From Candidatus Peribacteraceae bacterium (GTDB taxonomy: Bacteria; Patescibacteriota; Gracilibacteria; Peribacterales; Peribacteraceae), in NCBI GenBank assembly GCA_028699155.1, contig JAQVVD010000014.1, positions 1-37,553 of the forward strand: a DNA stretch of 37,553 nucleotides. Direction: 5' to 3'. The notes under the pieces are model-generated. The model had not been told where the DNA came from and ran no database searches. It was given only the letters and a program-made list of their open reading frames with translations. Within the stretch, counting starts at the first letter, position 1. The number at the start of each line of letters is the position of its first letter. This document shows, in pieces, positions 14,340-24,557 of this stretch. The translations under genes were made by a program, and so were the position numbers.

Positions 14340-15194
14340 ATGCGCATGCCTCGTGTTCGTACGTGCTCTCTTGTCGCCGTGGCATCGTTTGCCGCTCTCA
14401 TGACGCTCTCACTCGTCGGGTGCGGGGGCGATGCGTTGCCGCCGCTGCCGGAGGGGCCGCAGATCCTCACAGGCACGCTCCTGCCGACCGACCTCTCGCT
14501 CCTGCGCAGAGGGACGCATCTCCTGCAGATCGGTGGCGTCGATACGTACTACGTGGAGAGCACGTTCGAGAACCTGCGCAAGTACGAGCGCAAGACGGTG
14601 GTGCTGGAAGGGACGCTCTCCCGCAACGTCGAACCGACGTTCCTGCCGGTCCTGGACGTGCTGCGCGTCGTCGATGTGCTGGGCGATTCACAGAAGAAGT
14701 GGGAGATACGCTCCCTCAACCTCACGCTCTCCGTTCCGGAATCCTGGAGCGCCGAGGTGCAGGAAGGCGCCGCGACCTTCCGTTCCCTGGGGAGCGCCGA
14801 TCCTCTCGTGCGCATCACGCGCGGCACGGGGGCGATCATCGACGTGAGCGGCGGGACGCCGATCGTTCTGGGGAATGCACGGGCAATGCGCATCATCCAT
14901 GAGGCAACGGGTGCGCAGACGGTCGTGGTGGAGCGCGGCGAGGAAACCATCGTCTTCTCCTTCACGCCCGGGGAGCGGCAGAATGCGCTCGAACTGCGCG
15001 AGGACTGGCTCACGCTCCTCTCCACTGTCTCCTTTAGCAGGGAGAACGCTCCTTCCTCCGTCGCTCCGGGGACCGGTTCCGGTGCGGTTGCCGGCATGCC
15101 GTGCGGCGGCACCGCGGGCATCCTCTGCCCGGAGGGCTACTACTGCGATGTCGTGAACCTGCAGGAGAATATCGGAGTGTGCAGGAGGCTATGA
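14340..15194 (+). CDS. Lipoprotein with cysteine-rich C-terminal tail
   Basis: This 284-aa secreted lipoprotein of unknown function has a signal peptide at residues 1-27, with an Arg-containing n-region, a hydrophobic core and a lipobox LVGC. Lipid attachment at Cys28 is therefore expected. The middle contains an OB-like segment (ILTGTLLPTDLSLL, VVLEGTLSRNVEP) and a beta-rich part. The end is a compact four-cysteine module, PCGGTAGILCPEGYYC to NIGVC, reminiscent of small disulfide-bonded extracellular modules. It probably shares a transcript with the preceding sigma4-HARE gene. A diverged second copy of the cysteine module lies directly downstream but is split by the toxin-antitoxin insertion, so the ancestral protein may have been longer. 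Confidence 0.7.
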   Translation: MRMPRVRTCSLVAVASFAALMTLSLVGCGGDALPPLPEGPQILTGTLLPTDLSLLRRGTHLLQIGGVDTYYVESTFENLRKYERKTVVLEGTLSRNVEPTFLPVLDVLRVVDVLGDSQKKWEIRSLNLTLSVPESWSAEVQEGAATFRSLGSADPLVRITRGTGAIIDVSGGTPIVLGNARAMRIIHEATGAQTVVVERGEETIVFSFTPGERQNALELREDWLTLLSTVSFSRENAPSSVAPGTGSGAVAGMPCGGTAGILCPEGYYCDVVNLQENIGVCRRL

Positions 15195-15237
15195 GTGCAT
15201 CGTGAAGGGCGCTCCTCCGTGCGGTGGAATCCTGCGA
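15190..15237 (+). pseudogene. Left half of a split cysteine-rich repeat
   Basis: Read one frame shifted from the lipoprotein end, the DNA continues as Y-E-C-I-V-K-G-A-P-P-C-G-G-I-L and then stops. PCGG and IL match the lipoprotein's own PCGGTAGIL. The matching right half (GAYYCDVTNLQENIGTCK) lies at 16675-16731. The intervening 1.4 kb holds the Panacea toxin-antitoxin pair. Confidence 0.5.
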
Positions 15238-15260
15238 AAATAGCGGCCAGGAACCAAAAT

Positions 15261-15288
15261 ATCATTTTGCCGACGCCGGTAAAATGAT
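15261..15288. repeat. Inverted repeat downstream of the lipoprotein gene
   Basis: ATCATTTT (15261-15268) and AAAATGAT (15281-15288) form an 8-bp stem that can be extended by an internal CCG/CGG pairing. It may be a terminator or processing hairpin, although no T-run follows. Confidence 0.4.
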
Positions 15289-15315
15289 CGAAACAGACGA
15301 ATTATTGCAAAATCA

Positions 15316-15340
15316 AACTGTTGCAAACTTTGCAACAGTT
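15316..15340. promoter_or_regulatory. Perfect 25-bp palindrome upstream of the Panacea gene
   Basis: AACTGTTGCAAA (15316-15327) and its exact complement (15329-15340) flank a single central C. A palindrome this perfect with no T-tract is more like a protein-binding operator than a terminator. It lies about 60 bp upstream of the toxin-antitoxin promoter. Confidence 0.5.
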
Positions 15341-15373
15341 CAAAAAGAAGGATGCAAAGAAGTGAGGCGCGAA

Positions 15374-15426
15374 ATGTAAAATAACCTGACATGGATATTG
15401 ACAGATAATTTTACATAGATTACCCT
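15374..15426 (+). promoter_or_regulatory. Promoter and candidate autoregulatory operator of the toxin-antitoxin operon
   Basis: TTGACA (15398-15403), a 17-bp spacer and TACCCT (15421-15426) are followed by 7 nt and then the ATG, predicting a leaderless transcript. ATGTAAAAT (15374-15382) and ATTTTACAT (15408-15416) form an inverted pair that brackets the -35 box, a plausible site for the encoded HTH antitoxin. Confidence 0.65.
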
Positions 15427-15433
15427 AGTATGT

Positions 15434-16213
15434 ATGCTCTCTAAGTTCATCCATCAGCAGCGCACCAGCCGCAACCTCACGCAGGAATACCTCGCGTCGC
15501 AGCTCAAGATCTCCAGGCCCACCTACGTGCAAATCGAGCGGGGGCAGCGGGAATTGACGATCAGCGAGGCACAGAAGCTCGCGGAGGTGTTTGGTATGAC
15601 AATGGACGACTTTCTCCATGAGCGTGAGGAAGCATTGCCCGTTGTAGAGATCGCGCAGGCGAAGAAGAAACCTATGCCGAAGGCGGAGATCCGTATCAAT
15701 ATTCCTCAGGAGAAGGCGGATAAGTTTGAGCAAACACTGCTCTATATTCTCCGGAAGATCGGTGGCAAGCCGAACATCGGCCAGACTGTCCTGTATAAAT
15801 TGCTGTACTTCATCGATTTCGATTACTACGAAAAGTACGAGGAGCAGCTGATCGGCGCGCAGTATATGAAAAACACCTACGGGCCGACTCCGGTCATGTT
15901 TGCCAAAATGATCGAGCGGCTGGAACAGGAGCGCAAAATTGAAACGGTCAAAAGCAGGTTTTACACGCATGAGCAGACGAAGTATCTGGTGAACCCGGCC
16001 CTAGAGCCGGATATGTCTGCGCTTTCATCCAAGGAACTCGCGCACATCGATTGGGAAATCAGCCGTTTCGGGGATATGACGGCCGTGCAGATTTCGGCAC
16101 TCTCACACAAAGACACGCCCTGGCTTGCCGCGAAAGACAGGGAACCGCTGGAGTACGAACATGTGTTTTACCGTCCAGAAGAAACTTCCGTACGGACGTA
16201 TGAACCGCTTTGA
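15434..16213 (+). CDS. HTH-Panacea (DUF4065) antitoxin
   Basis: The N-terminal Xre-type helix-turn-helix (residues about 5-60: LTQEYLASQLKISRPTYVQI, then IERGQREL) should bind its own promoter. The C-terminal half is a Panacea/DUF4065 (SocA-like) domain, seen in KLLYFIDFDYYEKYEEQLIG, TYGPTPVMFAKMIERL and LSHKDTPW. Panacea domains are known as antitoxin modules that neutralise many unrelated toxins. The gene is 259 aa and overlaps the downstream toxin frame by 14 nt, the usual toxin-antitoxin layout. The promoter is near-consensus with essentially no leader. The whole unit sits inside a disrupted cysteine-rich repeat, which suggests acquisition by insertion. Confidence 0.88.
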   Translation: MLSKFIHQQRTSRNLTQEYLASQLKISRPTYVQIERGQRELTISEAQKLAEVFGMTMDDFLHEREEALPVVEIAQAKKKPMPKAEIRINIPQEKADKFEQTLLYILRKIGGKPNIGQTVLYKLLYFIDFDYYEKYEEQLIGAQYMKNTYGPTPVMFAKMIERLEQERKIETVKSRFYTHEQTKYLVNPALEPDMSALSSKELAHIDWEISRFGDMTAVQISALSHKDTPWLAAKDREPLEYEHVFYRPEETSVRTYEPL

Positions 16214-16550
16214 TTTTTGGCCTGCGTGCGAGAAGGAATGGCAGCGGCTCTCGAAAAGGTTCAGGACATTGCGAGACGACATGGAGAGCCTCAAAGCCGT
16301 TCTGGCCGCATGTCCGACGGGTCTCGGCAAGAACTTTACCGTGTTGCATGCCGGTGCGGGACTGCGCATTGTGAAAGCTCGTATGGCATGCCGTGCCCTG
16401 CGCAACCGTTCGCTTCGTTTGATCTATGCATTCCACGAAACGGACCGGCGCATCGTGTTCATTGAGTTGTACTTCAAGGGCGACAAGGAACATGAGGATA
16501 GGAAGCGTATTGAGGACTATGTGCGGATCAACCGAGAGGGCGTACGATAA
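16200..16550 (+). CDS. RelE/ParE-like toxin partner of the Panacea antitoxin
   Basis: This 116-aa basic protein lies directly after the antitoxin, starting at an ATG that overlaps the antitoxin's last codons. The order KNFTVLHAGAGLRIVKARMA, then RLIYAFHETDRRIVFIELYF and KGDKEHEDRKRIEDYV resembles the beta-sheet and C-terminal part of RelE/HigB-type toxins. In that fold Arg/Lys residues act on mRNA at the ribosome. The frame is open further upstream to 16125, but only inside the antitoxin gene. Target and mechanism are inferred from fold resemblance and position; catalytic residues cannot be assigned with confidence. Confidence 0.75.
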   Translation: MNRFDFWPACEKEWQRLSKRFRTLRDDMESLKAVLAACPTGLGKNFTVLHAGAGLRIVKARMACRALRNRSLRLIYAFHETDRRIVFIELYFKGDKEHEDRKRIEDYVRINREGVR

Positions 16551-16750: not shown

Positions 16751-16779
16751 TTGACCTGAGGAACACCGGCGTTTACAAT
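16751..16779 (+). promoter_or_regulatory. Near-consensus promoter of a very short transcript
   Basis: TTGACC (16751-16756), an exact 17-bp spacer and TACAAT (16774-16779). The predicted start is about 16786. The only thing downstream on this strand before a strong terminator is about 49 nt of non-coding sequence. Confidence 0.65.
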
Positions 16780-16785
16780 GGAAGT

Positions 16786-16834
16786 ACTTTCGGGATTTTC
16801 CCGCGACCCCCGGTAGCTTCCGGGGGAATTTTTT
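16786..16834 (+). ncRNA. Candidate small RNA of about 49 nt
   Basis: Promoter at 16751-16779 and intrinsic terminator at 16807-16834 define a tiny transcript. It has two potential stems: CGGGA-TTT-TCCCG near the 5' end and the terminator hairpin. The ATG at 16778 overlaps the -10 box and would lie outside the RNA, so no coding is expected. The alternative is an orphan promoter left by a lost gene. The terminator also runs into the stop codon region of the convergent mazF-like gene. Confidence 0.45.
16807..16834 (+). terminator. Strong intrinsic terminator
   Basis: CCCCCGG (16807-16813), a 6-nt loop and CCGGGGG (16820-16826) are followed by AA and six T. This is the clearest rho-independent terminator in the window. 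Its T-run is on the plus strand, so it serves the short transcript rather than the convergent mazF-like gene. Confidence 0.8.
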
Positions 16835-17258
16835 ATAGGTAGAGATTTTTGAATCCTACTTTCACCTTTCGAAAGTCGCTATCATCCAGTTCTCCTACCT
16901 TGGACCATAAGCGGCGATAATCAATAATACGCATTTGCTGTAAGCAGGCAGTGCATTCTCTTTTATGGTGCGCAAATGGAACGAACCAGCTTCCGCTTCT
17001 CTGCTGTGTTGTCGTAGGAATGACGCAGTAGAAGCCCCTTGCCAGTTTTTTAAAAATAATGACTGGGCGCGAAAAGCGGTCACTCTTGCCGTTGATCTCA
17101 TATCCCACGTTCTCTCCGATGCTTGCCCACCAGATTTCACCGTCCGAAACGAATGGCGGTTTGTGGTGCTTTCCGTGCAGTTTTTCTTTCAGCTGCATCC
17201 ATTCGGAGAATCTCTTTTGTGGTACTCCATATTCATCCATATGCTCGTCGGTATCCAT
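16833..17258 (-). CDS. Orphan MazF/PemK-family toxin
   Basis: Members of this family are usually sequence-specific mRNA endoribonucleases. The core pattern GEIWWASIGENVGYEINGK, then RPVIIFKK, FYCVIPTT and, near the end, a QMRIIDYRRLWSKVGEL block matches MazF/PemK. The 141-aa product has an extra N-terminal stretch of about 35 mostly polar residues before the barrel. An upstream GTG at 17279 lies inside the operator and before the likely transcript start, so the ATG at 17258 is chosen. No antitoxin gene lies directly upstream or downstream on this strand, which is unusual for the family. Its -10 box (TACACT, 17276-17271) is embedded in an 18-bp palindromic operator shared with recA and the DinD-like gene, so damage-inducible control is likely. 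Confidence 0.8.
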   Translation of the reverse strand: MDTDEHMDEYGVPQKRFSEWMQLKEKLHGKHHKPPFVSDGEIWWASIGENVGYEINGKSDRFSRPVIIFKKLARGFYCVIPTTTQQRSGSWFVPFAHHKRECTACLQQMRIIDYRRLWSKVGELDDSDFRKVKVGFKNLYL

Positions 17259-17270
17259 ACTACAAAGGGG

Positions 17271-17288
17271 AGTGTACACCCGTACACC
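17271..17288. promoter_or_regulatory. SOS-like operator 1 (mazF promoter)
   Basis: AGTGTAC-ACCC-GTACACC, an almost perfect dyad. On the minus strand the mazF-like -10 box (TACACT) lies inside it, so a bound repressor would block that promoter. It is also about 45 bp upstream of the divergent hydrolase start. Confidence 0.7.
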
Positions 17289-17332
17289 TCCCTCTTGTAA
17301 AGTCTCATTTTTTGCTGTGCTAGAATCACTCT

Positions 17333-17884
17333 GTGAAAACAGCTTTTATGCTCCACGGCGCGTACGGTACCCCGAACGAGAACTGGTTCCCGTGGCTTAA
17401 AGGTAAGCTAGAAGCTGAAAGCTTCAAGGTGATTCTTCCCCAGTTCCCTACGCCGGAGGGCCAGTCGCTCGCATCATGGATGGAGGTCTTTGCCCCGTAC
17501 CTCCCGGAACTCGATGGAGATTCCATTCTGATCGGGCACAGCCTGGGTGCAGCATTCATCCTGCGCGTATTGGAGCAGTTGGAGAGTCCCGTGCGAGCGA
17601 GCCTGCTCGCCGCCGGGTTTACCAAACTGCTCGGGATCCCGAAGTTCGATACGATCAATGCGAGCTTCCTGGAATCCCCTTTCGATTGGCAGAAGATCAG
17701 AGCAAACGCCGGCGCGTGCACGGTGTTCCATGGGGAGAATGACCCGTATGTGCCGCTTGCATTCGGGCAAGAGCTTGCGAAGAACCTCGGTGCGGATTTG
17801 GTTGTGATCCCCGGTGGCGGGCATTTGAATGCAGGTGCGGGATACGAGGAGTTCCCGGCACTGCTTTCTGCGATTGAGGGGTGA
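17333..17884 (+). CDS. RBBP9/YdeN-like alpha/beta hydrolase
   Basis: This small serine hydrolase of 183 aa has nucleophile motif GHSLG (Ser70), a likely catalytic Asp in ENDPYVP (about residue 137) and His in GGGHLNAGAG (about residue 164). MLHGAYGTPNENWFPWLK at the N terminus is typical of RBBP9/YdeN proteins, whose substrates are mostly unknown. The start is GTG, preceded by TAGAAT and exactly 6 nt, so a leaderless transcript is expected. A diverged copy of its last 40 codons lies at 18761-18883, beyond the DUF3800 gene. It is divergent from the mazF-like gene across the shared operator. Confidence 0.85.
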   Translation: MKTAFMLHGAYGTPNENWFPWLKGKLEAESFKVILPQFPTPEGQSLASWMEVFAPYLPELDGDSILIGHSLGAAFILRVLEQLESPVRASLLAAGFTKLLGIPKFDTINASFLESPFDWQKIRANAGACTVFHGENDPYVPLAFGQELAKNLGADLVVIPGGGHLNAGAGYEEFPALLSAIEG

Positions 17885-17915
17885 CTTTTAGTCGATTGGT
17901 GTTATTGTTGCCTAC

Positions 17916-18572
17916 ATGTGGTTTTTGTATTTGGATGAAAGCGGCGATCTTGGGTTTGATTTTGTGAATAAGCACCCATCAAAGTTCTTTACCATTACGG
18001 TTGTTGCAGTACATGGGAAACAAGGCAATCGTGATCTCAGGAAAGCTGTGCGAAAAACACTGGAGAGAAAATTAAATCCAAAACACAAGAGGATACGTTT
18101 GGTGCATGAATTGAAGGGGACGAAAACGACACTATCGGTGAAGAAGTACTGTTTGCAGCAACTTGAGAATTCCAAAGTGCCTTACATGATTTTTTCTCTC
18201 ACAATGGATAAACGAAAACTCTATTCCCGTTTAGTGAGGGAGAAAGAACGGGTCTATAACTATCTTGCAAGAAGGCTGCTCGATACGATCCGGTTTGAAA
18301 ATGCCGATACTCGCGTATATCTCTCTATTGATAAGAGTAAGAGCAAACCGGAAATTGCAGATTTTAATCAGTACATTGAACGCTCTATCCAAGCCAGATT
18401 GGATCCGAATGTCCCCTTACATATTCTGCATGAGGATTCACAAGACCAGCCGGGCTTACAAGTTGCCGATATGTTCTGCTGGGGAATTTTTCGCAAATAT
18501 GAACGTGGTTCCGATGATTGGTATGCGTGTTATGAACAGCGTATACGTTTAGATGAATTATTGTTCAAATAG
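17916..18572 (+). CDS. DUF3800 protein
   Basis: This 218-aa protein of the DUF3800 family has no proven function that I can name. Hallmarks are the N-terminal YLDESGDLGF and the C-terminal DSQDQPGLQVADMFCW. The conserved acidic residues (Asp7, Glu8 and Asp11, and the Asp of QVAD) suggest a metal-dependent nuclease-like site; that is inference. The gene is clearly more AT-rich than its neighbours and uses many AT-ending codons, a sign of transfer. TATTGT lies 7 nt before the ATG. It is flanked by an intact hydrolase gene and a 3' fragment of a hydrolase copy, as if inserted between duplicates. Confidence 0.85.
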   Translation: MWFLYLDESGDLGFDFVNKHPSKFFTITVVAVHGKQGNRDLRKAVRKTLERKLNPKHKRIRLVHELKGTKTTLSVKKYCLQQLENSKVPYMIFSLTMDKRKLYSRLVREKERVYNYLARRLLDTIRFENADTRVYLSIDKSKSKPEIADFNQYIERSIQARLDPNVPLHILHEDSQDQPGLQVADMFCWGIFRKYERGSDDWYACYEQRIRLDELLFK

Positions 18573-18760
18573 AGCAAGCCCTCCGTCCTTGGGATGTCCC
18601 CGCTTTTGCCTACCAGATGGAAGGGAACACGGGAGACGGGACGAAGTGGTCTTAATGCTCGTTTTCATTGTAATGTTTTTGGATCCGGTAGTCCAGTAGA
18701 CTTGACTTGCTATTTATCGATTGTTTTTTTAGTGGGTGAGGCTAGGGACTCCATGGGGGG
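18573..18760. other. Non-coding stretch after the DUF3800 gene
   Basis: No plausible frame, tRNA or strong hairpin is visible. A TTGACT occurs near 18698 without a convincing -10 box. The sequence joins DUF3800 to the hydrolase fragment and may hold the rest of a decayed gene copy. Confidence 0.4.
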
Positions 18761-18883
18761 CTTGCGAAGCACCTCGGTGCGGCTGGGGACATGGTTGTTA
18801 TCCCCGGCGGCGGGCATTTGAATGCAAGTGCGGGATACGAGGAGTTCCCGGCACTGCTTTCTGCAATTGAGGGGGTGATTTGA
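18761..18883 (+). pseudogene. 3' fragment of a hydrolase gene copy
   Basis: Translated from 18761, this gives LAKHLGAAGDMVVIPGGGHL and continues NASAGYEEFPALLSAIEGVI then stop. It matches the last 37 residues of the intact hydrolase at 17333-17884 with a two-residue insertion. The final 70 bp are nearly identical. The catalytic Ser and Asp parts are missing and there is no start codon. Confidence 0.85.
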
Positions 18884-18941
18884 GAAACGAGAGAAAACTG
18901 CATGTTTATTCTAGCCACAATCTTCAGTAGAATGCTTGCCA

Positions 18942-21900
18942 ATGCCTGAAGCAAATACGCAAAAACCACTGTTTCATAGCGAGTCTGCTGTGGCAATGCG
19001 ACAACCGAAAACAGACCGCCTCATTCTCAAGCGGCTGCTTCAAGAAGCTGCCCGTGATATGCGACTGGACGAAGAGGAGCTACAGCGATCCCACGCAATC
19101 ATGCTCAAGTGGTCCGATCTGGAACGTGCAGGAAGTCTGGAGCACCTTAATGAAACGCAAATGCAGGGCGATTTTCTCGCGCAAGTGTTCGGGGATGCTT
19201 TGGGGTATACAAGCGAGCTGGATGGCAAAGAAACATGGTATCGCATTCAGCACGAAGCAGTGGGAGGAGAAACGCCTGATGCGGTGCTCGGCAGATTCTC
19301 TGCGGCAACAGTGCATACGCCCTCGGTTGTCGTGGAACTCAAGGGACCGAAAATCCACGTTGATCGCCATCGGAGCAACGGTCGCACGGCAGTGGATCAG
19401 TGCTGGGATTACATAGTGAACACGCCGCCGAGCTGCCGATGGGGCATCGTCAGTAATATTGTGAGCTTTCGGCTTTATGAACGGAATTCAACCAAACGCG
19501 CATACGAGCACTTCTCGCTGGAAGCACTCAGGGATTTTGAGATATTCAAACAATTCTACGTGCTTTTCCACCGTGAAGGTCTCTTGGAATCCGCCGTGTT
19601 TGGTCCTGGGAGGGCTGCTGCATTACTCGGGGAATCCACGAATAGGCAACGAGAAATCGGCGATGCTCTTTACGACGAATATTCGGGGTACAGGACGGAT
19701 CTCATCCAGCACTTACACTTCAAAATAGGGCATTCGGTGGATGAGTCCATTGAAATGACACAGCGCCTCTTCGACCGAATTATGTTCGTTGCATTCTGCG
19801 AGGACAGGGGCCTCCTGCCAAAGGAGACGCTGGCCAAAGCATACCTTGCCGAGGGGTTCCATGCCGTTACCAATCCTCGTTGGCAGAATTTCAAGCATCT
19901 CTTCCAATTCATCGATCAGGGAAACGACGCGCATAACATACCGCATTACAACGGTGGACTCTTTGCCCCTCATGCCGTTGATGAGCTGGAACTGGAAGAT
20001 GAGCCGTGGACGACATTCTTTAAATCAATCAGTGGTTATGACTTCAGCGATGAGGTGAATCTTGATGTGTTGGGGCATTTGTTTGAAAAATCCATTACCG
20101 AGATCGAGAAGCTTAAAGAGTCCGGTCTCTTTGGGGGTGACGCGGAAAAGACGGAGGAATTTGCCACCATGCCGCAGTCCGCCAAGCGCAAGCAGCTGGG
20201 TGTGTACTACACCCCGCCCGAACTGACGGGGAAGATTGTCGAGTACACATTGGAGGAATTGATTACAGAACGGTTCCGGGAAGCTGCGGAGCACTATGGT
20301 ATTGCCAAGAAAGACGCGGCACACGGCATGGCGCCCGATGATCCCGCCTACTGGCAGGAGTGCCTGCATATTTTGCAGGATTTGAAAATCGTAGATCCTG
20401 CCTGCGGGAGCGGAGCGTTCCTCTTTCAGGCGTACAATGTGCTGGAGCAGCGGTATAACGAAGTCATTGGGTATCTTGAGCAATCCGGAGAGAAAGGAAC
20501 AAAAGAGCTCTTCGATCAGGTTCCGCAGTTTATCTTGCAGAAGAACCTGTACGGCGTGGATCTTTCACCGGAAGCGGTGGAGATTACACAGTTGGCTCTC
20601 TGGATCCGCTCCGCGACTCCCGGCCACACACTGGCGAAACTCGCCGATAATATCGTCCACGGCAATTCCCTGGTACACGATCCGAAGGTAGATACAAACG
20701 GATTTAAGTGGGAAGAGCGATTTCCAGATGTGTTTGAAGGAGAAGCAGGCGGTTTTGATTGCGTAGTAGGTAATCCGCCGTGGGAGCGGATCAAGTTGCA
20801 GGAGCGCGAGTTCTTCGCCGTCTCTGCGCCGGAGATCGCCACGGCGACCAATGCCGCCAAGCGCAGAAAACTTGTGGAAGCATTGAAGGCGGAAAATCCT
20901 GAACTCTATAGGAAGTATCAGGAAGCGCTTGCAGGTGCGGAAGCGCATCTGAAGTACTGTCACAAGAGCGGCGAGTACCCGCTGACTGGCAAAGGTGATA
21001 CCAATCTCTACGCGGTATTTGCAGAACTTGCGTTCCAGCTCGTGTCTCCTCGCGGGCGCGTAGGGTTTCTGGTGCCCTCCGGCATTGCGTCCGATAAGAC
21101 GACAAAAGACTTCTTTGCCGCCATTGCGGAATCCAATCGGCTTATCCGACTGTATGATTTTGAAAACAAGAAGAATTTCTTCCCGGATATTGATGGCCGT
21201 ATTAGGTTTTGTATTCTTAATTTTGGCGGAGCAGAGAGCGCCACCGATGCTGCAGATTTCGTTTTCTTTATTCACCGTATTGAGGAATTGCAAGACCGCA
21301 AGCGGCACATCGCCCTGAGCGGAGAAGATATTAAGCTCCTCAACCCAAACACCCGCACTTGCCCCATTTTTCGCTCGCAGCGCGATGCGGAAATTACGAA
21401 AGATATTTACCGCAGGGTACCAGTACTGATTGATGAGAATCGGAAAGGAGACACGGGCAATCTGTGGGGCGTCAAATTCCATACTATGTTTCACCAGACC
21501 AACGATGCGGAGCTCTTCCAAGAAGCAAAAACGCTCAAGGAAAAAGGATGTAAGCTGGAAGGAAACAGGTGGGTGAAGGGCAAGCAGGTTTATTTGCCGC
21601 TGTATGAGGCGAAGATGTTTAGACCATATGATCACAGGTTTGGCACAGTTTTTGAAGATACCTCAAATTGGGTTAACCAAGGGCAAACAACCCAAACCAC
21701 CATAGTGCAACATAGCAATCCGGAATTTGTTGTGCTGCCAAGATGGTGGGTTGACGCCTCCGTGGTAGGAGAACGATCTGGGCCCATTGTGAACCCCGCA
21801 ACCATCGGTTTCCGTGATGTGACTCGTGCGACTGATACGCGCACGTTTCTTGCTACCTTTCTGCCTAAAGTTGGTAGTACAAACAAAGTGCCTCTTATAG

Positions 21901-22403
21901 CAACAAATCAGGTGTCGATTCGGGAACTATGCCTCCTGGCCAATCTGAATGCTTTTCCCTTAGATTTCTGCGCCAGGCAGAAGTTCGGTGGCATTTCGCT
22001 CAATTTCTTTATTGTCGAACAGTTACCTATTCTTCCTCCCGAGTTTTACGAAAAACCATGTTCTTGGAGCTCAAAACACACCCTTGAAGACTGGATCAGC
22101 GAGCGCGTACTCAAACTCACCTGCACGGCAGAAGACATGCTGCCGTTGGCGGAAGCCTGCAATTTTACAAGCGGGAGTTTCCAGAAGGAGTATGGCGGCA
22201 AGCTCCACAAATGGGACGAGCAAGATCGTGCGGAAATCAGAGCAGAATTGGATGCCGCTTACTTCCATCTTTACGGCATCAATCGGGAAGATGCTGAGTA
22301 TATTCTCTCTACTTTCAATGGCATCCACGAGAATGAGTCGCTCTTCCCGGAGCATTGCAGCATGGCGGAGCGGATACTGAAGAAGTATGAGGAGATGGCG
22401 TAG
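18942..22403 (+). CDS. Type IIG restriction-modification enzyme
   Basis: This single-chain enzyme of 1153 aa should both cut and methylate DNA as a phage or plasmid barrier. The N-terminal nuclease is a PD-(D/E)XK type: ETPDAVLGRF with Asp113 and VVVELKG with Glu132 and Lys134. A helical linker leads to the adenine methyltransferase, with motif I DPACGSGAFL at about residue 485 and motif IV NPPW at about 611. GVYYTPPELTGKIV precedes motif I as in Eco57I-like enzymes. The C-terminal third would be the target recognition domain. TAGAAT 8 nt before the ATG at 18942 predicts a leaderless start; an in-frame TTG lies 6 nt upstream. No separate specificity or BREX/DISARM partners are present. All core motifs look intact, so activity is likely. 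Confidence 0.88.
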   Translation: MPEANTQKPLFHSESAVAMRQPKTDRLILKRLLQEAARDMRLDEEELQRSHAIMLKWSDLERAGSLEHLNETQMQGDFLAQVFGDALGYTSELDGKETWYRIQHEAVGGETPDAVLGRFSAATVHTPSVVVELKGPKIHVDRHRSNGRTAVDQCWDYIVNTPPSCRWGIVSNIVSFRLYERNSTKRAYEHFSLEALRDFEIFKQFYVLFHREGLLESAVFGPGRAAALLGESTNRQREIGDALYDEYSGYRTDLIQHLHFKIGHSVDESIEMTQRLFDRIMFVAFCEDRGLLPKETLAKAYLAEGFHAVTNPRWQNFKHLFQFIDQGNDAHNIPHYNGGLFAPHAVDELELEDEPWTTFFKSISGYDFSDEVNLDVLGHLFEKSITEIEKLKESGLFGGDAEKTEEFATMPQSAKRKQLGVYYTPPELTGKIVEYTLEELITERFREAAEHYGIAKKDAAHGMAPDDPAYWQECLHILQDLKIVDPACGSGAFLFQAYNVLEQRYNEVIGYLEQSGEKGTKELFDQVPQFILQKNLYGVDLSPEAVEITQLALWIRSATPGHTLAKLADNIVHGNSLVHDPKVDTNGFKWEERFPDVFEGEAGGFDCVVGNPPWERIKLQEREFFAVSAPEIATATNAAKRRKLVEALKAENPELYRKYQEALAGAEAHLKYCHKSGEYPLTGKGDTNLYAVFAELAFQLVSPRGRVGFLVPSGIASDKTTKDFFAAIAESNRLIRLYDFENKKNFFPDIDGRIRFCILNFGGAESATDAADFVFFIHRIEELQDRKRHIALSGEDIKLLNPNTRTCPIFRSQRDAEITKDIYRRVPVLIDENRKGDTGNLWGVKFHTMFHQTNDAELFQEAKTLKEKGCKLEGNRWVKGKQVYLPLYEAKMFRPYDHRFGTVFEDTSNWVNQGQTTQTTIVQHSNPEFVVLPRWWVDASVVGERSGPIVNPATIGFRDVTRATDTRTFLATFLPKVGSTNKVPLIATNQVSIRELCLLANLNAFPLDFCARQKFGGISLNFFIVEQLPILPPEFYEKPCSWSSKHTLEDWISERVLKLTCTAEDMLPLAEACNFTSGSFQKEYGGKLHKWDEQDRAEIRAELDAAYFHLYGINREDAEYILSTFNGIHENESLFPEHCSMAERILKKYEEMA

Positions 22404-22425
22404 GTAAAAACATGCTTTACAAACG

Positions 22426-22443
22426 GGTGTACACTTGTACACT
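22426..22443. promoter_or_regulatory. SOS-like operator 2 (DinD-like gene)
   Basis: GGTGTAC-ACTT-GTACACT, a near-perfect dyad 29 bp upstream of the DinD-like ATG and just after the restriction-modification stop. It overlaps the expected -35 area of the downstream gene. Confidence 0.7.
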
Positions 22444-22472
22444 GTTTCCTGTATCTATTTTCTCTCCTTACA

Positions 22473-23342
22473 ATGACAACGAAAATTTCTCTCTTCCAGG
22501 GTAAGAAAGTGCGTAAAACAACATATAAAGATGAATGGTGGTTTGTGATTGAAGATGTTGTTGCTATCCTCACGGATTCCTCCGACCCCAAGCAATACAT
22601 TCAACGCATGAAACAGCGTGATACAGAACTTGGTCAAGGGTGGGTACAAATTGTACATACCCTTGACGTAGCAACAGAAGGTGGCAAACAAAGAATGAAT
22701 TGTGCAAATACCGAAGGTTGTTTTCGCATCATCCAGTCCATTCCCTCTCCCAAAGCGGAGCCTTTTAAGCGCTGGCTGGCCAAAGTCGGCTACGAGCGCG
22801 TGCAGGAGATTGAAGATCCGGAATTGGCGACGAAGCGCACCCGTTCCTTGTACAAGGCGAAGGGATACCCGGAAGACTGGATAGAAAAACGTATGCGCGG
22901 TATTGCGGTCCGCGGGCAACTCACAGATGAGTGGAGCAAACGCGCAGTGAAGGAGGGGCGGGAATATGCCATTCTCACCGCGGAGATTTCCAAAGCGACA
23001 TTCGGCATGACGCCTGCTGAATACAAAAAGAAGAAAGGACTGGAACGCGAGAACCTGCGCGACCACCCACCTTCGCCCTCTGCTTTTTATTGCATCAAGG
23101 GAAGGCTGCGGTGGGCAGGCATGAACGATCTGGAGCTGATCTTCACCATGCTGGGAGAGGCATCCACGACGGAGATTGCCAGGACTAAAGATGCGCGTGG
23201 GTTTGAAGAAAACAAGGATGCGGCACAGAAGGGCGGCACGATCGCGGGTGGTGCTCGCAAAGCGCTGGAGCTGGAAAGCGGGAAGAATGTGGTGAGCAAA
23301 GAGAATTATTTGGACGGTGCAGATGATCAATTGCTGGTCTAG
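22473..23342 (+). CDS. DinD/BRO-family DNA-damage-inducible-like protein
   Basis: This 289-aa protein has an N-terminal Bro-N domain, seen in WWFVIEDVVAILTDSSDPKQ and the NCANTEGCFRIIQSI region; the domain is also found in phage antirepressors. Its DinD-like C-terminal half ends TEIARTKDARGFEENKD, AGGARKALELESGKN and VVSKENYL. E. coli dinD is an SOS gene whose product acts on RecA filaments. Here the gene lies immediately upstream of recA and has the same palindromic operator in front of it. These two facts support a damage-response role over a phage antirepressor role. The start is the first ATG after the operator; a TATCTA at 22452-22457 is a possible -10 box. The downstream gap to recA holds two more operators. 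Confidence 0.8.
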   Translation: MTTKISLFQGKKVRKTTYKDEWWFVIEDVVAILTDSSDPKQYIQRMKQRDTELGQGWVQIVHTLDVATEGGKQRMNCANTEGCFRIIQSIPSPKAEPFKRWLAKVGYERVQEIEDPELATKRTRSLYKAKGYPEDWIEKRMRGIAVRGQLTDEWSKRAVKEGREYAILTAEISKATFGMTPAEYKKKKGLERENLRDHPPSPSAFYCIKGRLRWAGMNDLELIFTMLGEASTTEIARTKDARGFEENKDAAQKGGTIAGGARKALELESGKNVVSKENYLDGADDQLLV

Positions 23343-23345
23343 AAG

Positions 23346-23363
23346 GGTGTACTCTCATACACC
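23346..23363. promoter_or_regulatory. SOS-like operator 3 (recA upstream, distal)
   Basis: GGTGTAC-TCTC-ATACACC, with one mismatch between half-sites, located 3 bp after the DinD-like stop codon. Confidence 0.65.
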
Positions 23364-23428
23364 ACAACACAATAGGGCTTCGCGCAATGGCTTCTGCATT
23401 GACCTTTTCCCTGCAATCATGAAAATAG

Positions 23429-23446
23429 GGTGTACGTACATACACC
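23429..23446. promoter_or_regulatory. SOS-like operator 4 (recA upstream, proximal)
   Basis: GGTGTAC-GTAC-ATACACC, the same asymmetric half-site pair as operator 3, ending 43 bp before the recA ATG. A TTGACC at 23399-23404 could be the -35 box of the recA promoter, which would put the operator just past its -10 region. Confidence 0.7.

Positions 23447-23489: not shown

Positions 23490-24557
<1,068 letters not shown>

Follow-up and report, generated by a model that had tools for sequence, protein, structure and literature searches.

The LexA boxes described for Cyanobacteria (RGTACNNNDGTWCB) and B. subtilis (CGAAC-N4-GTTCG) are palindromes with a 4-bp centre, and the targets in both groups include lexA, recA and ssb (PMC3091678). 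In E. coli, several toxins, often RNA-cutting, are also SOS-controlled, such as yafNO, dinJ-yafQ, symE, tisB and hokE (PMC2814082). The SOS network of Patescibacteria was the subject of a 2017 study by Sanchez-Osuna, Barbe and Erill, which deals with the same superphylum as the present work (doi 10.1111/1462-2920.13826) and is known here from its citations in PMC8565304 and PMC7739468. We analyzed a stretch of 37,553 nucleotides (hereafter, the window; positions 1 to 37,553 of contig JAQVVD010000014.1, assembly GCA_028699155.1) from a Candidatus Peribacteraceae bacterium, which has four operator-like dyads near a mazF-like gene, a Bro-N domain gene and recA (Table 1). We consider it likely that the word GGTGTAC-N4-GTACACC is a LexA operator and that it defines an SOS regulon composed of repair genes and an antitoxin-less MazF. 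The palindrome with its 4-bp centre and the lexA, recA and ssb targets are shared with the two regulons above, and the likeness to the cyanobacterial box suggested in the earlier note is fair, as that box has a GTAC-N4-GTAC-like core (PMC3091678). In contrast to both boxes, the predicted operator described here has longer arms with outer GGT/ACC and is confined, within its class, to one family of Peribacteria with tiny genomes.

Table 1. Predicted LexA operator sites and adjacent genes in the window (site scores are from the family matrix).
Feature	Position	Strand	Location or annotation	Score
MazF/PemK-family protein, 141 aa	16833..17258	-	Pfam PF02452	32.5 bits, over cut-off
LexA operator site 1 (predicted)	17271..17288	.	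over mazF promoter, between the divergent mazF and hydrolase genes	23.6 bits
Alpha/beta hydrolase (Ser_hydrolase)	17333..17884	+	divergent from mazF; Pfam	
LexA operator site 2 (predicted)	22426..22443	.	before Bro-N gene	25.7 bits
Bro-N domain protein	22473..23342	+	Pfam PF02498	56.5 bits
LexA operator site 3 (predicted)	23346..23363	.	upstream recA site	24.6 bits
LexA operator site 4 (predicted)	23429..23446	.	downstream recA site	27.8 bits
recA	23490..24557	+	TIGR02012	517.6 bits

The four dyads with a common N4 centre, first pointed out in the earlier note, were recovered at the same positions with scores far above chance. A weight matrix derived from 164 distinct sites in other genomes of the family (the window's own genome was excluded) gave 23.6–27.8 bits for these sites, compared with 1.0 bits for the next-best position in the window and a maximum of 20.3 bits for 1.1 million positions drawn at random under a mononucleotide model. 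All four sites have an exact 12-bp core, GTGTAC-N4-RTACAC. The full 18-mer, GGTGTAC-N4-RTACACC, had been reported for every site, but only the two recA sites match it exactly, and the mazF and Bro-N sites are each one outer base off. Each site is intergenic and upstream of mazF, the Bro-N gene or recA. The Bro-N gene starts 30 nt downstream of the end of the site 2 core, and its stop codon is followed 4 nt later by the beginning of site 3. recA indeed has two sites, which are spaced 83 bp apart.

Both a genome-wide scan and a search for lexA, proposed in the earlier note, gave positive results. In the genome to which the window belongs (1.18 Mb, 44 contigs, 96% complete), which was examined through pattern scans and individual stretches, the exact core occurred at five places, four in the window and the fifth at C35:65287, whereas a reversed-pattern control gave none. 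The lexA gene, located on contig C41, codes for a 203-aa protein that matches the TIGR00498 equivalog (144 bits versus a cut-off of 111), and its Ala-Gly cleavage bond and catalytic Ser and Lys residues align with those of solved LexA proteins. The genome encodes a LexA with an HTH, an Ala-Gly site and a Ser/Lys dyad, as expected for an SOS regulon. The lexA promoter, which the earlier note had proposed to check for the motif, carries a one-mismatch site (G000:C41:4572) 91 bp upstream of the start. The C35:65287 site, together with a second one-mismatch site 36 bp away, precedes comM (YifB/ComM AAA ATPase); a one-mismatch site is located 57 bp upstream of ssb (C28), and a two-mismatch site 23 bp upstream of an rmuC-like gene (C20), which was named on the basis of its N-terminal sequence and of RmuC targets in relatives. 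The predicted operator precedes the repair genes recA, ssb, comM and rmuC in this genome. Other one-mismatch matches were within ORFs, as expected by chance. When up to two mismatches were allowed, the genome was at control level and nearly all such sites were within ORFs; weaker sites were therefore set aside, the rmuC-like one being the only two-mismatch site kept. No convincing target was found for one place on C32 (14.2 bits).

The motif was conserved in the relatives. Of 57 family genomes, 56 contained the exact core (control counts were mostly 0 and never above 2) and 52 had LexA. In a sample of the class, 17/17 family genomes contained the exact core versus 4/100 others, the latter near control level, and the predicted operator is specific to one family of the class. 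Our strongest independent test involved lexA promoters, which were chosen by gene and independently of the motif: 29 of 30 had a site (≤2 mismatches), compared with ~1% of shuffled stretches. A second, weaker site 24 bp further on was common in these promoters (L081-L110). Paired sites 80–84 bp apart were present at 18 of 19 recA loci; most of these loci were fetched via a single site, a choice on which neither the other site nor the spacing depends. A separation of approximately eight helical turns would place the two sites on the same side of the helix, which might allow looping.

Sites collected in relatives with the motif as the sole criterion were found before recA, comM (~23 loci), ssb (~8 loci), lexA and rmuC. 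Additional targets included genes for a Y-family polymerase (polymerase promoters were among those that the earlier note had proposed to check), a PIF1-like helicase, DinD, Bro-N proteins, N6/N4 DNA methylases and a 23S-IVP-like protein; priA-, recG- and C5 DNA methylase-like genes, recognized by eye, were also preceded by sites. Some sites in relatives had no sensible target. Compared with the regulons of Cyanobacteria and B. subtilis, this regulon is distinguished by the spaced recA pairs and by the presence of comM, Bro-N genes, DNA methylases and a new small protein.

The proposal that the repressor is LexA is supported by the lexA equivalog, by the sites at lexA, ssb, comM and rmuC and by the family-wide conservation of the motif at lexA and recA. 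A different repressor could read the motif, for example the HTH-Panacea protein whose gene is in the same island beside recA (see below) as the mazF and Bro-N sites. We regard this as very improbable, since the motif occurs throughout the family at the promoters of lexA, recA and ssb, whereas the fetched loci gave just one further match to the Panacea gene, a weak one (32% identity). Apart from LexA, the genome has a single S24-type match, which by its sequence is a signal peptidase. Judging from sequence, LexA very probably binds this family-specific word upstream of recA, lexA and further repair genes, and in the window's genome also upstream of mazF. LexA dimers would repress lexA, ssb, rmuC and the Bro-N gene, as well as recA and comM through two sites each, and in the window's species also a MazF-family mRNA interferase with no antitoxin in its unit. 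Upon DNA damage, RecA filaments would stimulate self-cleavage of LexA at the Ala-Gly bond, the repair genes would be switched on together with MazF, and MazF would cut RNA and slow growth until the damage is cleared and LexA is back. Having a concrete predicted LexA operator for this hard-to-culture group would make the damage responses of this family of Patescibacteria readable from sequence.

The mazF-like identity suggested previously was confirmed by the PF02452 match and by structure comparison. An AlphaFold2 model of the protein (mean pLDDT 83) matched MazF structures from M. tuberculosis, B. subtilis, E. coli and S. aureus with a Foldseek probability of 1.00, and, by its modeled fold, the product is a genuine MazF. 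Its nearest named relative (61% identical) is in a Candidatus Peribacteria genome. The description of this MazF as an orphan holds for its transcription unit, in which no cognate antitoxin (mazE) was found; however, an antitoxin-like gene, HTH-Panacea, is located ~620 bp away in convergent orientation, with its own downstream neighbor. At the 3' end of mazF (window 16751-16836), a promoter-like TTGACC-17-TACAAT is directly followed by a strong terminator, possibly giving a short RNA of ~50 nt.

Site 1 is between two divergent starts, with that of the hydrolase 45 bp away, which raises the question of whether the regulon is LexA-controlled but this site serves mainly the hydrolase, or both genes, so that mazF is not specifically damage-regulated. 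We find this improbable. Three hydrolase relatives, including one beside recA in G147, had no site within 200 bp (the best had 5 mismatches), and the hydrolase was rejected as the target on these grounds; in addition, site 1 is upstream of a possible hydrolase -35, and its core ends 13 nt from the mazF ATG, a typical position for repression. Because the hydrolase relatives lack the site, it most likely goes with mazF. As scored by the family matrix, the mazF site is as strong as the recA sites. It is not a conserved feature of mazF genes: no site (≤2 mismatches) was found in the stretches around 29 relatives in the phylum, the close relatives L173, L174 and L111 likewise lacked one upstream, and a conserved mazF site was rejected since no mazF relative examined had one. 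The predicted mazF-LexA link is species-level, and the function of the mazF site rests on one genome.

An RNA-cutting toxin in an SOS regulon is plausible given the E. coli precedent (PMC2814082), and the toxin-type gene within a LexA regulon is common to both. The E. coli toxins are accompanied by an antitoxin or an antisense RNA, whereas the Peribacteria MazF-family protein is alone behind its own LexA site. A toxin without antitoxin would need tight repression, and an alternative is that the protein is a tamed RNA-processing or regulatory protein under SOS control rather than an active toxin. Consistent with this, the MazF-like family has multiple copies and a patchy distribution across Patescibacteria (32/287 phylum genomes and 6/74 genomes of the Peribacteria family), the unit has no antitoxin partner, no solved structure matched the protein by sequence, and ~40 residues precede the MazF core, an extension common to Patescibacteria relatives and, like the missing mazE, a difference from MazF/PemK toxins. 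Nevertheless, the protein shares the RP motif with these toxins and retains a PTTT-like stretch, its modeled fold matches active MazF toxins, and 11 alignment columns are invariant in 27 relatives, including R64 and P65, the former of which we take to be the catalytic arginine. We therefore view a tamed protein as rather unlikely and favor a MazF that would cut RNA after damage. If true, a LexA-gated toxin without antitoxin would couple growth arrest to DNA damage in a very simple way.

The mazF and Bro-N genes belong to an inserted island. In most relatives, recA directly follows a homolog of the gene at window 14340-15194 (gap roughly 80–200 bp), or, in G147, is separated from it by a hydrolase. 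In the window, ~8 kb separates the two genes, and the order is a dinD remnant, the HTH-Panacea gene, its downstream ORF, mazF, the hydrolase, a DUF3800 gene, an Eco57I-type methylase and the Bro-N gene. The dinD remnant (ESCENSGQEPKYHFADAGKMIE) was found at 15206-15380, immediately after gene 14340-15194. The next gene combines an HTH with a SocA/Panacea antitoxin-like domain and is followed by ORF 16125-16550 (window 15434-16550 for both); this ORF had no Pfam match and is RelE-like by eye only, and the two likely form a separate toxin-antitoxin pair beside mazF. In addition, 3' ends of host genes are duplicated on both sides of inserted genes (15138-15192/16681-16735 and 17773-17881/18760-18874), marking the insertions as if gene ends had been rebuilt. 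The mazF branch of the regulon looks like a species-level recruitment via insertions beside recA.

The Bro-N gene had been called DinD-like. As a LexA-boxed target it proved recurrent, with seven boxed sites at relatives of the gene in four other genomes, but its identity as DinD did not hold: the protein has the Bro-N domain and gave no NCBIfam match, including the DinD equivalog NF008573, at E 0.001, and membership in the DinD family was rejected for this reason. The LexA box and a BRO-like N-terminal domain are what it has in common with DinD. Thus, the Bro-N gene is, by these comparisons, a predicted recurrent SOS gene of the family outside the DinD family. A true LexA-boxed DinD was present in the relative G323 (L151, 328.9 bits to NF008573). 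In another relative (G302:C17, L176/L221), a LexA site is followed by a truncated dinD, a different MazF, a second LexA site and a Bro-N gene; this clustering indicates that MazF and SOS accessory genes have met at least twice.

Among the LexA-boxed genes of relatives was one for an unnamed small protein of 70–115 aa with the consensus VVIDWS...LxxWVxxxPxxxxxHVYL...RxLxxxLQxLGCTVT (loci L240-L269, e.g., L247 at G310:C24:11033-11272). Matches to it (E 0.01) came from 56 of 74 family genomes and, in a phylum sample, in 10/13 family genomes versus 0/274 others. An exact LexA site was present at 29 of the 30 best loci, usually with 7–10 nt between it and the start codon; the one remaining locus (L244) was a scan miss, as the same gene carries an exact site in L202. 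The model of the protein has a small beta-alpha-beta-alpha-beta fold. It had no relative in Pfam, and a fold search against the PDB gave no significant match (a single hint, to NYN, was weak at E 0.024), so that naming it by either route was rejected. The window's genome yielded no copy of the gene. Several relatives have it near the tyrosyl-tRNA synthetase gene, and because tyrS (134-1477) is at the contig end in the window, the small-protein gene may have been lost to an assembly gap. Should the SOS response of the family include a checkpoint effector, this protein is a ready candidate for the role. We tentatively propose, as somewhat less than an even prospect, a family-specific SOS response that would halt growth by its own effectors, usually the small protein and, in the window's species, also the LexA-held, antitoxin-less MazF.

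Exact LexA sites were also observed at DNA methyltransferase genes in relatives (L051, L075, L113, L120, L125, L129, L169, L209, and L154, L165), and restriction-modification genes seem to join the SOS regulon of the family repeatedly. Another gene with an exact LexA site encodes a four-helix protein similar to 23S-rRNA-intervening proteins (L116, L127, L156, L208, L215, L229, L236); in several of these loci it adjoins an adenylate kinase-like gene.
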